From the NCBI RefSeq assembly GCF_900155395.1, contig NZ_LT699728.1, positions 186,001-250,000 on the forward strand: a stretch of 64,000 nt of DNA, written 5' to 3'. Positions 46,039 to 56,461 of the stretch are shown here, piece after piece (positions within the stretch are counted from its first letter, which is position 1; each line of letters opens with the position of its first letter). This stretch comes from Merdibacter massiliensis. Its GTDB lineage: Bacteria > Bacillota_I > Bacilli_A > Erysipelotrichales > Erysipelotrichaceae. The notes under the pieces are model-generated. The model had not been told where the DNA came from and made no database searches. It saw only the letters and a list, made by a program, of their open reading frames with translations. The translations under genes were made by a program, and so were the position numbers.

Positions 46039-47484
46039 TTATTTCATTGAGAAACGATCATAAAATTCCATTTCTTCCAATACACTTGTATCTTCGATCG
46101 GATTGTCATCCAAGCGCAATTCCTGCAGCAACGTCAGATCTTTCAATGGCGAAACATCAGTAATGTAGTTTGCTTTTAAAGTTAAGGAACGCAGATACTT
46201 CAAAGAAGATAGAGGTTTCAGATCAACGATCGCATTGTGATCCAAACGCAAATAAGACAGATACTCCAGTTTAGATAATGGACGCAGATCCGTGATGATA
46301 TTGTTGTAAAGATCGATCTTGCATAGATCATGTAACTGCGATAAAGGAGAAATATCCGATACATTGTTATTTTCAAGACCTAAGATTTCCAATTGTTTCA
46401 TATTTTGTAAACATGTGATATCTTTGATTGCATTATTTCCTACATTTAATACCGTCATGCTTTTGCAAGACTGCAGCACTTCGATATCCTCTATCAGATT
46501 CGTATACAGATTTAGTTCTACTAAGTTCTTCGAATTTTTTAAGAACTCCACATTACGCAGCTGGCAATGACTTGCTTTAAAGAAAACCAGGTTTTCCAAA
46601 TGTTTCAATGTACCGCAGCGATCCAATTTATTTTCAGAAAGATCTACTTTGCAAAGCATTCGCAAATTGCTGAGCACGCTCACATCATGGATACCGGTCT
46701 GCACCATGCGCAGTTCTTTCAACGATGTTAGATCTCTCAAGAAAGAAAAACTGTCCGGATGATTATAAGATAAGTTTAAAACTTCCAGATGTTCCATATC
46801 CTTTAATAATGTATAATCTTTCAGATACGGACAATTCGATACATCTAAAGAGCGCAGATTTTTCATTGATGTGATCGGTGAAAGATCGCTGAACAAGTTT
46901 GTCGACAGATCCAAGACCTCCACACTTGTCAGATACGTCAGATCATCGATATTATACAACCACATCTTATTCATATGCAGTTCTTTCAAATTTTTCAGGG
47001 TACCTAAGATACTTACAGGGAAAGGGCCATTTTCAATACCGATATAAAGGACACGCAATTTTTTAGTGTTTTCCAAATAAATGATGTTATCAATCTTGCT
47101 GCGTTCCAGATTCAGTTCTTCCAGATCGATCATACCGGCAACAGCTGAAATATCCATTGTATATAAGTTATTGCGTGATATATCTAATTTTTTTAATTGA
47201 CGAAAGCCATGCAGTGCCTGAAGATCACGCAAACGGTTTTTGGACACATTTAAACGTTCGATATTACGTAAATTACGGATAGGATCCAAGATCTCGATAT
47301 CATTTCCGCATAGATCCAATGATTCTAGATTCTCTGCATATTCCAATCCTTCCAAAGAAGTAATACCTGAATAACGGACAGATAAGTTACGCAGTTCCAA
47401 CATTTTTTCTTCACTGATTTCATCTTCACGAATACGCAAGGTACGTGCGATGGCCTCACGAAGCATATCATCTTTAATGAGCAT
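46039..47484 (-). CDS. Cytosolic SDS22-type leucine-rich-repeat protein
   Basis: Protein of 481 residues made of about 19 LRRs of roughly 22 residues (pattern LxxLxxLxLxxNxIxDIxxL), starting near residue 45 after a short helical cap. The repeat type is that of internalins and SDS22, but there is no signal peptide, membrane segment or anchor, so it should stay in the cytosol as a protein-binding scaffold. It is a single-gene unit with a TATAAT box at about 47523. Partner unknown. Confidence 0.85.
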   Translation of the reverse strand: MLIKDDMLREAIARTLRIREDEISEEKMLELRNLSVRYSGITSLEGLEYAENLESLDLCGNDIEILDPIRNLRNIERLNVSKNRLRDLQALHGFRQLKKLDISRNNLYTMDISAVAGMIDLEELNLERSKIDNIIYLENTKKLRVLYIGIENGPFPVSILGTLKNLKELHMNKMWLYNIDDLTYLTSVEVLDLSTNLFSDLSPITSMKNLRSLDVSNCPYLKDYTLLKDMEHLEVLNLSYNHPDSFSFLRDLTSLKELRMVQTGIHDVSVLSNLRMLCKVDLSENKLDRCGTLKHLENLVFFKASHCQLRNVEFLKNSKNLVELNLYTNLIEDIEVLQSCKSMTVLNVGNNAIKDITCLQNMKQLEILGLENNNVSDISPLSQLHDLCKIDLYNNIITDLRPLSKLEYLSYLRLDHNAIVDLKPLSSLKYLRSLTLKANYITDVSPLKDLTLLQELRLDDNPIEDTSVLEEMEFYDRFSMK

Positions 47485-50635: not shown

Positions 50636-52327
50636 TTACTTGCTCATTCGGCGTTTCATATACAAAGCAGCGCTCAAAGCAGCACAAGAAGTAAACAATA
50701 CGAACCATAATGCAAGATTATTGGCTGTATCTGTGTCTGGAGTTGTCTCTGCCACAGGTTTTTCGTCACTTGGTGTTGCTGGTTCTTGTGGAGTTTCTGT
50801 TGGATCATCACTTGGTTGAACAGGACTTTCTACTGTATAAGAAACAGTAGGTCTGGCAAATGCTTCTTCTTTTCCCATATTGCCATTGGTATCTACCGGT
50901 GTTAAAACGGCTGATAAATTTGTATATAAACCATCCATGCCTTTGCTGCCGTCTGCATCATAGCTACCATAAGTGCCTGGCTGTGTGGATGGATTTGTCA
51001 ATACGACCTTATAAGTCAATTGAACCGGCGCAAAATTCGATACAGCTTCATTAATGTGCCATACGAAGTGTTCTTGTCCTCCTTCACCAGGTACATATTC
51101 CACTACATACGCATAATCCGCTGTGGATTTGGCAACAACAGATGGTTTGAATCCATAGGTATTTTCAGCTATTTCTACAGCTTCATATACTTCATCTCCC
51201 ACCATCAAGCGCAGTGTAGATGGATCATTGACAAAATCAAAATCATATTCCCCTTCTGCATATCCCATATAATCGGTTACCGTAGAACCGGCATCTAAGA
51301 GATAATAGATATCTTTTTGAATTTCACTGAAGGAAACTTCCTCATTTCCGCCATTCAAGTAATCCATAAAGCCTTTAGCCCACGCAGCCGAAGAGACTGT
51401 GTCTTTTGAATTTACCGCATAGCAGTGGTAACCTTCATTTTTGGCTTCGTTATATACCTGGTAGGTGTAATACAAAGCACGGTCGACATTCGTTGCATAT
51501 ACATTCTGCTGTAAGCCGTCAGCAGCTGTAGCTAAATTTTCTGGAATTTCTTCTTTAGAAGCTCGATACCCATTTAAGATATCTCTTGCTTCTCCTTCAT
51601 ATGGAATTTCGATCGCATTGCTGTTTTCAATAGCGGTTTGGACATTGCTCATCCATGCATTCCAGTCAGCTGGCGCATCATCGCTTCCATATTTAAAGCT
51701 CCATGCATAGTTATCAAAGGAGAAATAAGGCGATCCATCACTCATCCAGTAATAAGCCGTAACTGTTGGCTGTGCTCCATACATATAGGTATTTCCATCA
51801 CTGGCAAAAATGAGATATTTGCGACTTGCTTCCACGCTCTGATCTTCATCCAGCATTGCCTTGCCTGCTAACAGACCAGCATGCGTATTTGTACCGCTGC
51901 TGATTTCTGTTTTGATAGCAGTTTCAATAGCCGCCATGTTCTCGTCATTTAATTCGGTCAATTCCAAGACGCGGTTGGCTTGCTTATTGAAAATAACGAT
52001 ACCGACCTTGACTGTTGCATCTGTTGATTGAATCTGCGTATTCAATTCTTACAGCATTTCTAAGATCTGATTTTCGACCCTTGCACTAGAAGATTTATCC
52101 AGTACAAATACGACATCGCTTACTAATTCTTCCTGAGCAGAAGGCAAAGACAATGTCACTTCGGATGTGTAGTCAGCATCCAAATTGGTTGCTGTTTTTG
52201 ATTTTGAGATTTCCCAATCTGTAGACGATTCCCCTGTATTCTCTGCGTGTGCAGCAGACGGCGATAATGCAAAGAGCATACCAACGCTTACAACAAACGC
52301 CAGAAATTTTTTCAGCACTGATTTCAT
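50636..52327 (-). pseudogene. von Willebrand A surface protein with in-frame TAA
   Basis: The reading frame has a start with AAAGGAG upstream, a signal peptide (1-28), and a VWA domain whose metal-site motif DVVFVLDKSSSA is clear. TAA at 52048-52046 stops it about 94 codons in; reading continues in the same frame (ELNTQIQSTD, VKVGIVIFNKQ) for 470 codons to a Pro/Thr-rich spanner, a TPDTD stretch, a hydrophobic segment and KRRMSK. One base change explains the stop. The full protein would be about 563 residues. A downstream ATG two codons after the stop could give a fragment without signal peptide. Confidence 0.88.
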
Positions 52328-52355
52328 ACTTACACTCTCCTTTACGTGCTCTTTC

Positions 52356-52682: not shown

Positions 52683-52716
52683 ATATAAAAAAACGAACAT
52701 TCTTATGTTCGCTTTT
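52683..52716 (-). terminator. Terminator of the exported-protein operon
   Basis: CGAACAT and ATGTTCG arms with a four-base loop and T-runs on both strands; it follows the last gene of the sigma-factor operon. Confidence 0.85.
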
Positions 52717-52726
52717 TTCTTCTTAT

Positions 52727-53713
52727 TCAGGCTGATTTTTTTGCTCCACAGGCACATTGCCAACAATCGATGTATGTTTCATAATGACCATGATCTTCTG
52801 TATGCGAGCCTACTTTCTTTTTTTCGGTTTTGGTGCGGTTGACATAATTGCCGTAATAGACACCTTGGTAGAGCCCATTTTCATCCATATTGGCCAAACC
52901 GGTATAAATGATTGCTTTTAGATCATCCATCGTGAACCCGTCTTCAAACCAGTAGACTGGTCCATTGCTATAGTAGATCGGCTGTCCGGACGCATCATAA
53001 CCTCCTAATGTATAGAACTGAGCCCCGTAGATCGTTTGTGTTTCATAATCATCAACGCTCACGATATTCGATACCCACCGTTTGGCGTAATGAGGCTGGT
53101 AATCATGGACGTGGGAAGAAGAAATGGTTCCTTTGCCGGATGAGGAAGATGTCTTGCTTTGCGTGCCGGCCGTATTATTGGAGGAAGCAGCTGAAGTCTT
53201 GGACTGCGTGTTTGTTGTCTCCTTGTCCTTTTTAACTGCAGAAGTATTTTTCTTGTCCTCTTGTGTTACATTGACCTTGATATCGGCCTGCACTTTGCAA
53301 GTAGTGCCGCTCAGATCGAACGAAACTTTTTGTTCTTGCAGTTTTTCTTGCAATGCCGGTACGTTGATCGTAATGAGATAGCCAGCATCATACGTACCTG
53401 CTTGACTGGTATCGACATTCCCCTGTACCTGCAGATCTTGGACGATGTTCGCATCATATTGGACATCTTTCGATAAATTGATGTCTTCTCCCTGTTTCAC
53501 TTCCCGATCCTTTATCCCGCTCAAGATGTTCTCTTTTGAAAGCAGATCCAGATCTTCTTGTGTCAGCGTGGGATAAGCATCATCCGCTGTCTCTTTGACC
53601 ACTGTTTTGGGTTGAACAGCAGGTTCACTCTTCCCTTGTGCCAGAAGGCAGGATCCTGACACCAGCAACACCAAGACAGTTGCAACGGCCAGCTGTTTTT
53701 TCCTTATCTTCAT
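52727..53713 (-). CDS. Exported protein with Cys/His-rich C-terminus
   Basis: Protein of 328 residues: signal peptide (1-27), an Ig-like beta domain (about 45-150, with the DREVKQGEDINLSKDV style of bacterial cadherin- or Big-like domains), a long Ser/Thr/Asn linker, and a C-terminal domain. That domain starts with HVHDYQPHYAKRW and ends with HTEDHGHYETYIDCWQCACG, which could bind metal. LVSGSC near the signal end is a poor lipobox. Third gene of the sigma-factor operon, 34 bases after the lipoprotein gene. Confidence 0.75.
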   Translation of the reverse strand: MKIRKKQLAVATVLVLLVSGSCLLAQGKSEPAVQPKTVVKETADDAYPTLTQEDLDLLSKENILSGIKDREVKQGEDINLSKDVQYDANIVQDLQVQGNVDTSQAGTYDAGYLITINVPALQEKLQEQKVSFDLSGTTCKVQADIKVNVTQEDKKNTSAVKKDKETTNTQSKTSAASSNNTAGTQSKTSSSSGKGTISSSHVHDYQPHYAKRWVSNIVSVDDYETQTIYGAQFYTLGGYDASGQPIYYSNGPVYWFEDGFTMDDLKAIIYTGLANMDENGLYQGVYYGNYVNRTKTEKKKVGSHTEDHGHYETYIDCWQCACGAKKSA

Positions 53714-53747: not shown

Positions 53748-54569
53748 TTATTCATTTGCTTCTACACGAGTATATACGCATTTCACATTAAAATCTGATC
53801 CTTTGTAAAGTCTGGATGCAACAGTCTCTGTCGAAGAACCTTTATCGACTTCATCAAAATAGATTTCCTCAACTTTCTGCTCGCTGCCATCGTATGTGTA
53901 TCGTACCCATACGGCAGGATCCGTCCAGACATAATCACTGTTATTGCTCAGCTGGATCGTTAAGCTTCCCTGCTCTGCATCATAATTGAAGTTGACCTCA
54001 TAATCTTTTGGCATCACATACATGCTGCCGAATCCTCGATCAGGGTTTGCGGCCAGTTCATCACTGAAAGCATCGATAAACTTCAGCTGCGGTTGTGAAA
54101 TCAAAGCTGGATCTGGTCGAAGAGCTCCGAAATTTCCATTTTCGGACAGGGTCAAAGTAAATTGTTTTTCACTGTTTGCATCGATATCAGGAACTTCTTG
54201 TGCATTTCCTGAATCTGAGATAAAGTTGATGTCTTGCGGAGTGCTTCCGTCAATACTGCATTCTCCGCTTTCGATCTCATCTCCGGCATAGGCTACGGTT
54301 CCGCCTAATATCACGTAGTTGATATGCGTATCATTATCGTTTACGATCGTTCCCGTGATGGTCGCCGTATCAACGTCATAAGCAACATCCTTTAAGGATA
54401 ACTTTTCCATCAGTGAAGTTTCTGTCACTGGTTCGTTTTGTTCTTGTGTTTCTTCTTTTTGTGTATCTTCCTGTACAGTGCTTGTGTCACTGCTGCCGCA
54501 TCCTGTCAAGGAAAATGCCATCAACATGGCCATTCCCATAGTGATCATTTTCATTTTGCTTGTTTTCAT
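53748..54569 (-). CDS. Lipoprotein linked to the ECF sigma gene
   Basis: Lipoprotein of 273 residues with lipobox LTGC (Cys24), an acidic linker and two beta domains of FxLYD/DUF-like Ig style (DVDTATITGTIVNDNDTHINYV; SLTIQLSNNSDYVW). It follows the sigma-factor gene by 12 bases with AGGAGG before the ATG, so it is in the same operon. It may help sense or report envelope stress; this is inferred from context only. Confidence 0.78.
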   Translation of the reverse strand: MKTSKMKMITMGMAMLMAFSLTGCGSSDTSTVQEDTQKEETQEQNEPVTETSLMEKLSLKDVAYDVDTATITGTIVNDNDTHINYVILGGTVAYAGDEIESGECSIDGSTPQDINFISDSGNAQEVPDIDANSEKQFTLTLSENGNFGALRPDPALISQPQLKFIDAFSDELAANPDRGFGSMYVMPKDYEVNFNYDAEQGSLTIQLSNNSDYVWTDPAVWVRYTYDGSEQKVEEIYFDEVDKGSSTETVASRLYKGSDFNVKCVYTRVEANE

Positions 54570-54581
54570 TTTCTTGTCCTC

Positions 54582-56360
54582 CTAGTTTTCATTGGTTGCG
54601 ATCCATTCAAATCCATCTTCTGGCAGGGTCGTGTATGTATTGGTCGTTGGATCGAAGTCCAGCGGTTCTTTAAATATATCCTGCTGCGGATAGTAGAAGA
54701 AGCATCGAGTCAGGCTTTCATCTTCTGCACGCAACAGGTAAGCCGTTGCCCCTTGCGGTGCCGTGATCGTCGTGTCTTCCTGCATTTGATACAGTTTTGT
54801 CGTTGTCTCTGGAGAAGTTGACATGCCTTCGATCATGCGTACTTCACCGGAAGTGTCGATCTGCATAGTGCTTCTTGCACCGCCGGCAGGCGCTACATAG
54901 CTGTATTCCTTCGCCATGGAAGAAGGAATCGAGCCGGACTGTGTTTGTTCTTCCGGTTCCTCGACATTCTCAATCGTTTGAATGCGATAATAGCCCTCAT
55001 CATCCGGAAGCAATGTTGCTTTTTTGTTGACGGTATATTGTGTTCTGCCATCATTGCTGGTGTACTGATATGAGTAAACGACCTCCATTTGACCCTCCCG
55101 GATCATAGCAGATTGAATCTCTGCCTGCACCTGATAAGTAGAAGCCGGATACAGTGCAATCGTATCCTCACGGATCACAGCTCCTTCTTCCGATGTATCT
55201 TTGGAAAATAACTGGTCTGTGAAAGAGGAGAAATAGCGATTGACATCTTGCAATGCATACTCCTTTCGTCCACTGCTGTCTGTGCCCATTTCCCGGATAT
55301 GGCCATCCGCATTATTGCAAAGCGTAAATAATGTCTGGATCCTCTCTTCCTGTGTAAGGCCCTCTTCTTGCATTTCTTGCGGTCCATAGGCAAGGACAAA
55401 TGTGAATTCGTCTTTGGTCAATTGTCCTTCGATCAAAGAAGGATATTGTGCATCTTGTACCTCTTGCACCGTTTCTTGCTGTTTTCTTTCTGCCGGAGCC
55501 GGATCCATCCACATTTTTACAGCACCATACGTTGCGCCTCCTGCCACAGCCAGACTGACAATGACTGCAGTCGCTTTAGCGGCCGTCGTATGGAGGAAAC
55601 CGCTTTTTACCAGTGCTTTGCCGGCAGCTGCTGTTTTTCCGGCAGCAGCCGTTTTATGCATGCCCTGTAAGATTGCCTGTCCGATTTCTTTTCCAGCCAG
55701 CAGACATTGCCTGCTTTGTATAAAATTGGCTTCCTGCGTATGGAACAACGACAACAGCAGCGGAATAGGCGCCATTCCATAGAATGTATAACCCTTTTTT
55801 TGTAATGCCTCCACTTTTTCTTTTAATTTTTCTTTGCCATAACGCAATCTGGATTTCACTGTATTTTCAGAGCATTCCAGCGTCTGTGCGATCTCTTTGA
55901 TCGAAGCTTCTTCTATATAATATAGTAAGATGCACATTCGCTGTTCTTCTGATAGCGTATCGATCAATGCCCGCAGCAATTCGTTTGTTTCCTTTTGTGA
56001 AAAAGCTAACTGCGGCTGATGATCCCTGCGTTCATCTTCCAGCTGCAAAGGACATTCCTCATCTTTTTCCTTTGCAAGATCAGAAAATAGAACGGATGGA
56101 TTCTGTTTGGCCAAATGGTTTTTTGCTGTATTTGCCACGATCATGCCAAGCCAGGAAGAAAACGCTTCTGGTTTTTCCAATGTGGATATTTTAGCAAATG
56201 CACGGACATATGCTTCCTGTATGACATCCTTTGCTGTTTCTTCCTCTCTCATATATTGAAGAGCAAGATAATATTTGCTTTTATAAGTATTTTCGTAAAG
56301 GAAAACATATCCTTCTTCTTTCCCCTGCTTTGCTAATGCGACCGCCTCTGCCAGCTCCAT
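54582..56360 (-). CDS. ECF sigma factor fused to a membrane and extracytoplasmic domain
   Basis: Protein of 592 residues. The N-terminal part is a sigma-70 ECF factor: region 2 (about 15-85, with DVIQEAYVRAFAKI) and region 4 (about 125-185, with LYYIEEASIKEIAQTLECSENTVKSRL in consecutive pieces). A Lys/Ala-rich stretch leads to one membrane segment (about 262-282), followed by some 310 extracytoplasmic residues with beta-rich repeats. Sigma and sensor are thus one polypeptide instead of a sigma/anti-sigma pair. AAGGTG before the ATG at 56360 sets the start. It leads an operon with two exported proteins. Confidence 0.88.
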   Translation of the reverse strand: MELAEAVALAKQGKEEGYVFLYENTYKSKYYLALQYMREEETAKDVIQEAYVRAFAKISTLEKPEAFSSWLGMIVANTAKNHLAKQNPSVLFSDLAKEKDEECPLQLEDERRDHQPQLAFSQKETNELLRALIDTLSEEQRMCILLYYIEEASIKEIAQTLECSENTVKSRLRYGKEKLKEKVEALQKKGYTFYGMAPIPLLLSLFHTQEANFIQSRQCLLAGKEIGQAILQGMHKTAAAGKTAAAGKALVKSGFLHTTAAKATAVIVSLAVAGGATYGAVKMWMDPAPAERKQQETVQEVQDAQYPSLIEGQLTKDEFTFVLAYGPQEMQEEGLTQEERIQTLFTLCNNADGHIREMGTDSSGRKEYALQDVNRYFSSFTDQLFSKDTSEEGAVIREDTIALYPASTYQVQAEIQSAMIREGQMEVVYSYQYTSNDGRTQYTVNKKATLLPDDEGYYRIQTIENVEEPEEQTQSGSIPSSMAKEYSYVAPAGGARSTMQIDTSGEVRMIEGMSTSPETTTKLYQMQEDTTITAPQGATAYLLRAEDESLTRCFFYYPQQDIFKEPLDFDPTTNTYTTLPEDGFEWIATNEN

Positions 56361-56428: not shown

Positions 56429-56461
56429 TTAGACAGGGAAAAGAAAGAAAAGGTTTTAAAA
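56429..56461 (-). promoter_or_regulatory. Candidate ECF-type promoter of the sigma operon
   Basis: AAAACC, a 16-base spacer and TGTCTAA resemble ECF promoters (AAC near -35, CGTC near -10), and no ordinary TATAAT promoter is better placed. It would let the sigma factor control its own operon. Confidence 0.45.

Follow-up and report, generated by a model that had tools for sequence, protein, structure and literature searches.

Single-chain proteins that join a sigma factor to a membrane regulator have been little studied. The review literature names IutY of Pseudomonas putida (ECF243) as one such protein with experimentally characterized proteolytic activation; its sigma, transmembrane and anti-sigma parts lie in one chain, and its release by Prc and RseP has been proven (PMC5411451). 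The actinobacterial ECF48, ECF52 (SCO4117) and ECF53 proteins likewise consist of an ECF sigma factor, one or more C-terminal membrane helices and an extracytoplasmic part; their extension carries a zinc-finger anti-sigma domain, and a review expects them to be activated by the same kind of cuts as IutY (PMC8999054). The canonical SigW/RsiW and SigV/RsiV systems also combine an ECF sigma factor, a membrane regulator, intramembrane proteolysis and an ECF-type promoter, but in them the anti-sigma factor is a separate protein bearing its own anti-sigma domain. The SigI/RsgI systems of Clostridium thermocellum, which occur as many paralogous sets per genome with variable outside sensors and in which RseP cleaves the membrane regulator (PMC12203970), are two separate proteins as well, with sigma-I unfused. 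In ECF41 and ECF56, an NTF2/SnoaL-like extension follows region 4 and is cytoplasmic.

Here we analyze a gene in a 64-kb stretch of DNA (the window) from a member of the Erysipelotrichaceae. Like IutY, its product carries an ECF sigma factor inside, one membrane segment and an extracytoplasmic part in a single chain, according to its predicted topology, and the locus likewise has no separate anti-sigma gene. The outside part of IutY, from a Gram-negative host, is a cell-surface-signaling anti-sigma domain that works with an outer-membrane receptor; Pfam finds no FecR-type anti-sigma domain in the window protein, and no such receptor was found among the neighboring genes examined. Proteolysis is proven for IutY (PMC5411451), whereas for the window protein we infer it. 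The protein also differs from ECF48, ECF52 and ECF53 in that the Pfam search of its linker returned no zinc-finger anti-sigma domain, from SigI/RsgI in that the sigma gene is followed by lipoprotein and exported-protein genes and not by a separate RsgI gene, and from ECF41 and ECF56 in that it has no cytoplasmic SnoaL-like extension, its tentative NTF2-like domain lying beyond the membrane helix. Given that one-piece membrane ECF sigma factors are already known (PMC5411451; PMC8999054), the tone of novelty in the first-pass annotation of this DNA was too strong. Our literature search found no paper on such fused sigma factors in Erysipelotrichaceae; this speaks weakly for novelty, and these fusions may already figure as a Bacillota group in the published ECF classification.

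Sigma factor, membrane helix and external part in one chain

The first-pass annotation placed the gene at 54582-56360 and read it as sigma regions 2 and 4, a membrane segment and about 310 external residues in one chain. The open reading frame, the Pfam matches and the hydropathy profile bear out this reading, and the features are collected in Table 1. The frame is uninterrupted, with 595 codons from GTG 56369, 604 codons from stop to stop and no internal stop. Translation likely starts at ATG 56360 (592 aa), in agreement with those coordinates, rather than at GTG 56369 (595 aa), since this GTG sits within a Shine-Dalgarno-like GGGAAGG (56375-56369) that resembles a ribosome-binding site for that ATG.

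Table 1. Features of the sigma factor locus in the window and of the two-gene loci in genus g18
Feature	Position	Strand	Evidence and details
One-piece membrane-anchored ECF sigma factor gene	54582..56360	(-)	592 aa; ORF and Pfam; layout common to >30 relatives
Sigma region 2	56100..56297	(-)	PF04542 (Sigma70_r2), 41.7 bits; AF2 pLDDT mostly >90
Sigma region 4	55824..55982	(-)	PF08281 (Sigma70_r4_2), 56.4 bits; AF2 block pLDDT 79-96
Cytoplasmic linker, region 4 to membrane helix (predicted)	55584..55814	(-)	~75 aa; low AF2 confidence
Single membrane helix (predicted)	55518..55574	(-)	Hydropathy, AF2, positive-inside pattern over 32 proteins
Extracytoplasmic part (predicted)	54582..55517	(-)	~311 aa; AF2 and Foldseek, low confidence
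Lipoprotein, second gene of unit	53748..54569	(-)	273 aa; lipobox LTGC; weak lipoprotein-family matches
Exported protein, last gene of unit	52727..53713	(-)	328 aa; N-terminal hydrophobic signal; weak Ig-like match
Terminator-like stem-loop and T-run after third gene	52694..52711	(-)	CGAACAT-AAGA-ATGTTCG-TTTTTTT
Predicted ECF-type promoter	56429..56457	(-)	AAAACCTTTTCTTTCTTTTCCCTGTCTAA; -35 AAACC, -10 TGTC; ~70-100 nt upstream of start codon
Two-gene loci	L013:1480-2779, L014:1480-2782, L016:767-2046		Sigma gene and membrane-ectodomain gene

Residues 1 to ~185 make up an entire ECF sigma factor that has regions 2 and 4 but not region 3, as in the ECF family of sigma-70 factors; both Pfam matches exceed their cutoffs (24 bits for Sigma70_r2, matched by residues 25-90, and 25.7 bits for Sigma70_r4_2, matched by residues 130-182), and the sigma70-ECF superfamily model TIGR02937 scores 91.1 bits against a cutoff of 42.9. 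The best solved-structure matches of this part are SigW, AlgU and E. coli sigma-E. The linker that follows has one cysteine, gave zero Pfam matches at E<1 and is not confidently packed against the sigma domains in the AF2 model; neither there nor in the ectodomain does Pfam recognize an anti-sigma domain.

The one hydrophobic segment, ATAVIVSLAVAGGATYGAV at residues 266-284, has a mean Kyte-Doolittle value of 1.64 over 19 residues, and the AF2 model places the membrane helix at residues 259-285. The 20 residues N-terminal of this helix hold three K/R and no D/E, and 311 residues with a net charge of -31 follow it. When 32 fused proteins were compared, the helix lay within residues 227-295, and in 31 of them the 20 residues preceding it carried a higher net charge than the 20 residues following it. 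Since this charge pattern fits a sigma domain inside and a C-terminus outside, we predict that topology.

The ectodomain can be read tentatively as an NTF2-like domain (~54966-55415) followed by a beta-rich domain (~54630-54878). The NTF2-like call is tentative because neither AF2 model is strong (mean pLDDT of 60.9 when the entire protein was modeled and 53.2 for the ectodomain alone) and because the ectodomain-only, single-sequence model has no PDB match at E<=0.001 that would confirm the fold. Relatives of the window ectodomain sequence were found in 0 of 395 genomes of the class. The ectodomains of fused relatives vary, with Ig-like stretches in L048 and L093 that score under the curated Pfam cutoffs. 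At the end of the outside part of the L093 protein (L093:5684-7471, on G424:C12) lies an NlpC/P60-like segment in which Cys and His are present, its match also below the Pfam cutoff; this fusion couples a sigma factor to what may be a wall enzyme, a cell-wall peptidase of this type. The L093 sigma gene adjoins ribosomal protein genes.

A three-gene unit preceded by its own promoter motif

As the first-pass annotation stated, no anti-sigma gene lies 3' of the sigma gene; the open reading frames, the lipobox and the N-terminal signal identify a lipoprotein and a second exported protein there, separated by gaps of 12 nt (sigma to lipoprotein) and 34 nt (lipoprotein to exported protein). The C-terminal region of the exported protein is rich in His and Cys (52727-53200 (-), HVHDYQPHY ... 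HTEDHGHYETYIDCWQCACGAKKS) and could bind metal. Relatives of the exported protein are present in other genomes, and at none of the three loci examined does a sigma gene stand alongside; the window unit thus looks like a local assembly.

The promoter motif [AG]AAC-N18-GTC was derived from the promoters downstream of relatives' sigma genes and then applied to the window. The 64 kb contain five copies of it, one of them 5' of the sigma start, where 0.006 occurrences would be expected per 150 nt, and its 25-nt span is identical to the span in the relatives. As the motif stands before the sigma gene itself, the sigma factor, lipoprotein and exported protein would form one autoregulated unit that ends at the terminator-like stem-loop. 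A scan of the whole genome produced no convincing second site, with control patterns hitting as often or more. One candidate target ~1 kb upstream of another ECF gene (C21:263401) was rejected since the site is inside another ORF. In the closest relatives, G424:C12 and G324:C35, the motif is absent within 300 nt on either side.

Elsewhere in the window, a VWA-type surface-protein gene (50636-52328 (-)) appears to be interrupted: a signal-peptide start at ~52328 (MKSVLKKFLAFVVSVGM...) is followed by a TAA at ~52050, and the VWA domain lies further downstream in the same frame. A gene at 46039-47484 (-) encodes a leucine-rich-repeat protein that has 13 repeat matches and lacks an obvious signal peptide.

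Fused relatives and a natural two-gene version

A whole-protein search of the family, followed by a wider search, recovered the same architecture in other genera. The first-pass annotation had proposed looking for the fusion in other genomes, and the layout is shared by more than 30 other Erysipelotrichaceae-type proteins; uninterrupted fusions occur in six genera of Erysipelotrichaceae and in one genus of a second family of the order. Two genomes hold many copies, 25 in G050 and 22 in G087 (47 ORFs of 332-387 aa); the search model included some of these copies, and those outside the model still scored below 1e-51, with the remaining ECF proteins above 1e-28. A peptide-pattern search of genome contigs found no close orthologs of the window protein, and none was found in two other genomes of the same genus, each ~85% complete. 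Some long sigma ORFs of other genera (G023, G072, G176 and G099) were rejected as fusions, there being no membrane helix after region 4.

One genus, g18, carries the protein as two genes in each of three genomes (L013, L014 and L016). The first encodes a soluble sigma factor of 188-191 aa, and the next, which overlaps or abuts it, a protein of ~240 aa in which a hydrophobic segment separates a short cytoplasmic stretch at the N-terminus from an ectodomain. This ectodomain matches the fused G418/G044 ectodomains with an hhalign probability of 96.2% (E 2e-9; each profile was built from only three sequences). A midpoint-rooted tree of the sigma domains separates the sampled fused proteins and the three split proteins from 20 other soluble ECF factors with a support of 0.857, and the split genus is nested within the fused group beside G044a (0.922). 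Homologs split at the fusion point had been named beforehand as evidence against a genuine fusion. Such homologs do exist in this one genus; however, given their position inside the fused group, they speak for, and not against, the view that a sigma factor has been linked to its own membrane regulator. The matching ectodomain and the tree position together indicate that the C-terminal half holds the place of a membrane anti-sigma factor. The simplest reading of the tree is that the split genus would have arisen by fission of a fused ancestor. Since one-piece and two-piece versions occur naturally in one family, it becomes directly testable whether a sigma factor can be silenced without a recognized anti-sigma domain.

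Proposed mode of activation

What the sequence itself shows is the architecture, the topology as predicted, its conservation, the arrangement of the genes, the promoter match and the M50 gene. We propose that the protein is an autoregulated fusion that unites a sigma factor with its membrane regulator, controls envelope proteins and is probably released by intramembrane proteolysis. At rest, the C-terminal helix and outside domain would keep the ECF sigma domain at the membrane, presumably inhibiting it in cis. An extracellular signal or an envelope state would act on the ectodomain, whereupon the chain would be cut outside and then within the membrane by an RseP/RasP-type protease. The freed sigma-linker fragment would guide RNA polymerase to the AAACC/TGTC promoter. 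Its own three-gene unit would be the main target, perhaps the only one found, so that envelope proteins would come under positive feedback. An RseP-like M50 protease gene is present in the genome (208 bits), but because M50 proteases are nearly universal (present in 14 of 14 control genomes), this gene is weak evidence for release. In favor of the model are the one-helix layout kept in the fused proteins, the two-gene counterpart in g18, the grouping of both versions in the tree, the pairing with exported-protein genes, the motif shared with the relatives and the precedent of IutY; against it stand the missing match to any anti-sigma domain, the linker that AF2 does not confidently pack on sigma, a promoter pattern not enriched in the genome beyond its own site, and the absence of the motif from the closest relatives. 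We rank release first, and transcription from the anchored protein second, on the precedent of IutY and on the review of ECF48, ECF52 and ECF53; both modes had been put forward in the first-pass annotation.

The second of these readings, which we consider unlikely, is that the anchored sigma factor is active as such in the manner of CadC or ToxR, with an outside ligand or dimerization altering the sigma factor and RNA polymerase being recruited at the membrane, beside the place where exported products are inserted. No anti-sigma domain was found, the linkers of ~50-75 aa might be long enough for a membrane-bound holoenzyme to contact DNA, and the neighboring genes nearly always encode exported proteins, all of which would suit such a scheme. 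However, we know of no sigma factor that initiates transcription while anchored, and the sigma factor of the split genus is soluble. In addition, IutY, the one-piece sigma factor studied experimentally, needs RseP (PMC5411451).

Less probable still is an ordinary sigma factor whose C-terminal extension just localizes or destabilizes it, with activity set by the level of transcription (through autoregulation or a housekeeping promoter) and an ectodomain that is no sensor. The lack of relatives of the window ectodomain is consistent with this, as are two features of the relatives in genus g50 (uncultured Erysipelotrichaceae, Bacterium c-19 and Erysipelotrichales MGBC isolates, the MGBC ones being of mouse-gut origin): their ectodomains are short, at 75-104 aa, and near-consensus TTGACA/TATGAT-like promoters lie 5' of most of their sigma genes. 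Against it, the one-helix topology persists over very diverse ectodomains, the Ig-like and NlpC/P60-like ones included, which suggests selection for the outside part.

It is scarcely credible that the gene is decayed or that an error artificially joined a sigma gene to a gene for a membrane protein; an artificial join was what the first-pass annotation had named as a refutation. A relative in G022 does close just past the helix with an apparent continuation in another frame (through either an assembly error or a real split), and genus g18 does carry two separate genes, but independent genomes carry uninterrupted fusions, in six genera of the family and one of a second family and as 47 ORFs in two genomes, and these exclude a join made by sequencing or assembly.

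Sigma-promoter-surface-protein modules in relatives

The most novel aspect of the group is the dedicated sets of sigma factor, promoter and surface protein in the relatives. An automatic test identified the gene after the sigma gene as encoding an exported protein, often a very large one, at 35 of 37 loci (one of the 37 from G038, the rest from g50); at the other two, the downstream gene begins MIRKACISILVLLFTVS... and has an exported N-terminus on inspection.

Between the sigma gene and the surface-protein gene, GAAC ranks first of all 256 tetramers, being present at 22 of 27 non-redundant loci, compared to a mean of 9.5 and a maximum of 16 loci over 200 shuffles. The fuller pattern GAAC-N16-18-GTC, which was picked after the sequences had been inspected, occurs at eight of the 27 loci versus a shuffle mean of 0.33, and at none on the opposite strand; the tetramer test is free of such a choice. 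The -10 part varies by locus and is common to pairs of closely related sigma factors: L045 and L088 share CTGTGTCAGAGTT, L046 and L135 share CGGCTCT, L138 and L145 share TTCT(C/T)AGAGCA, and L040 and L041 share CCGTC(A/T)GATTGATA. The -10 sequences group with sigma subclades. When the residues of sigma region 2 were compared with the -10 type, the lowest single-column p was 0.007, which is not significant over all columns.

The gene pairing and the motif together suggest that each sigma factor may drive its neighboring surface-protein gene. A broader version, which we hold tentatively, is that the 22-25 anchored sigma factors per genome would each drive a single neighboring large surface-protein gene through a separate promoter with a shared GAAC -35 and a subclade-specific -10; the window gene, present in single copy, would be a relative whose controlled unit includes the sigma gene. 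If true, this would be a many-channel switchboard with each surface protein under a private, self-sensing sigma factor. The presence in one gut genus of 22-25 copies per genome, each examined copy beside an exported-protein gene, could account for the way in which some gut Firmicutes select the proteins on their surface. In L040-L058, L131-L134 and L135-L147, all from g50, each membrane sigma gene is followed by a gene for a large exported protein, and some g50 exported proteins contain long runs of calcium-binding-like DGDGKPDxNIDT repeats.
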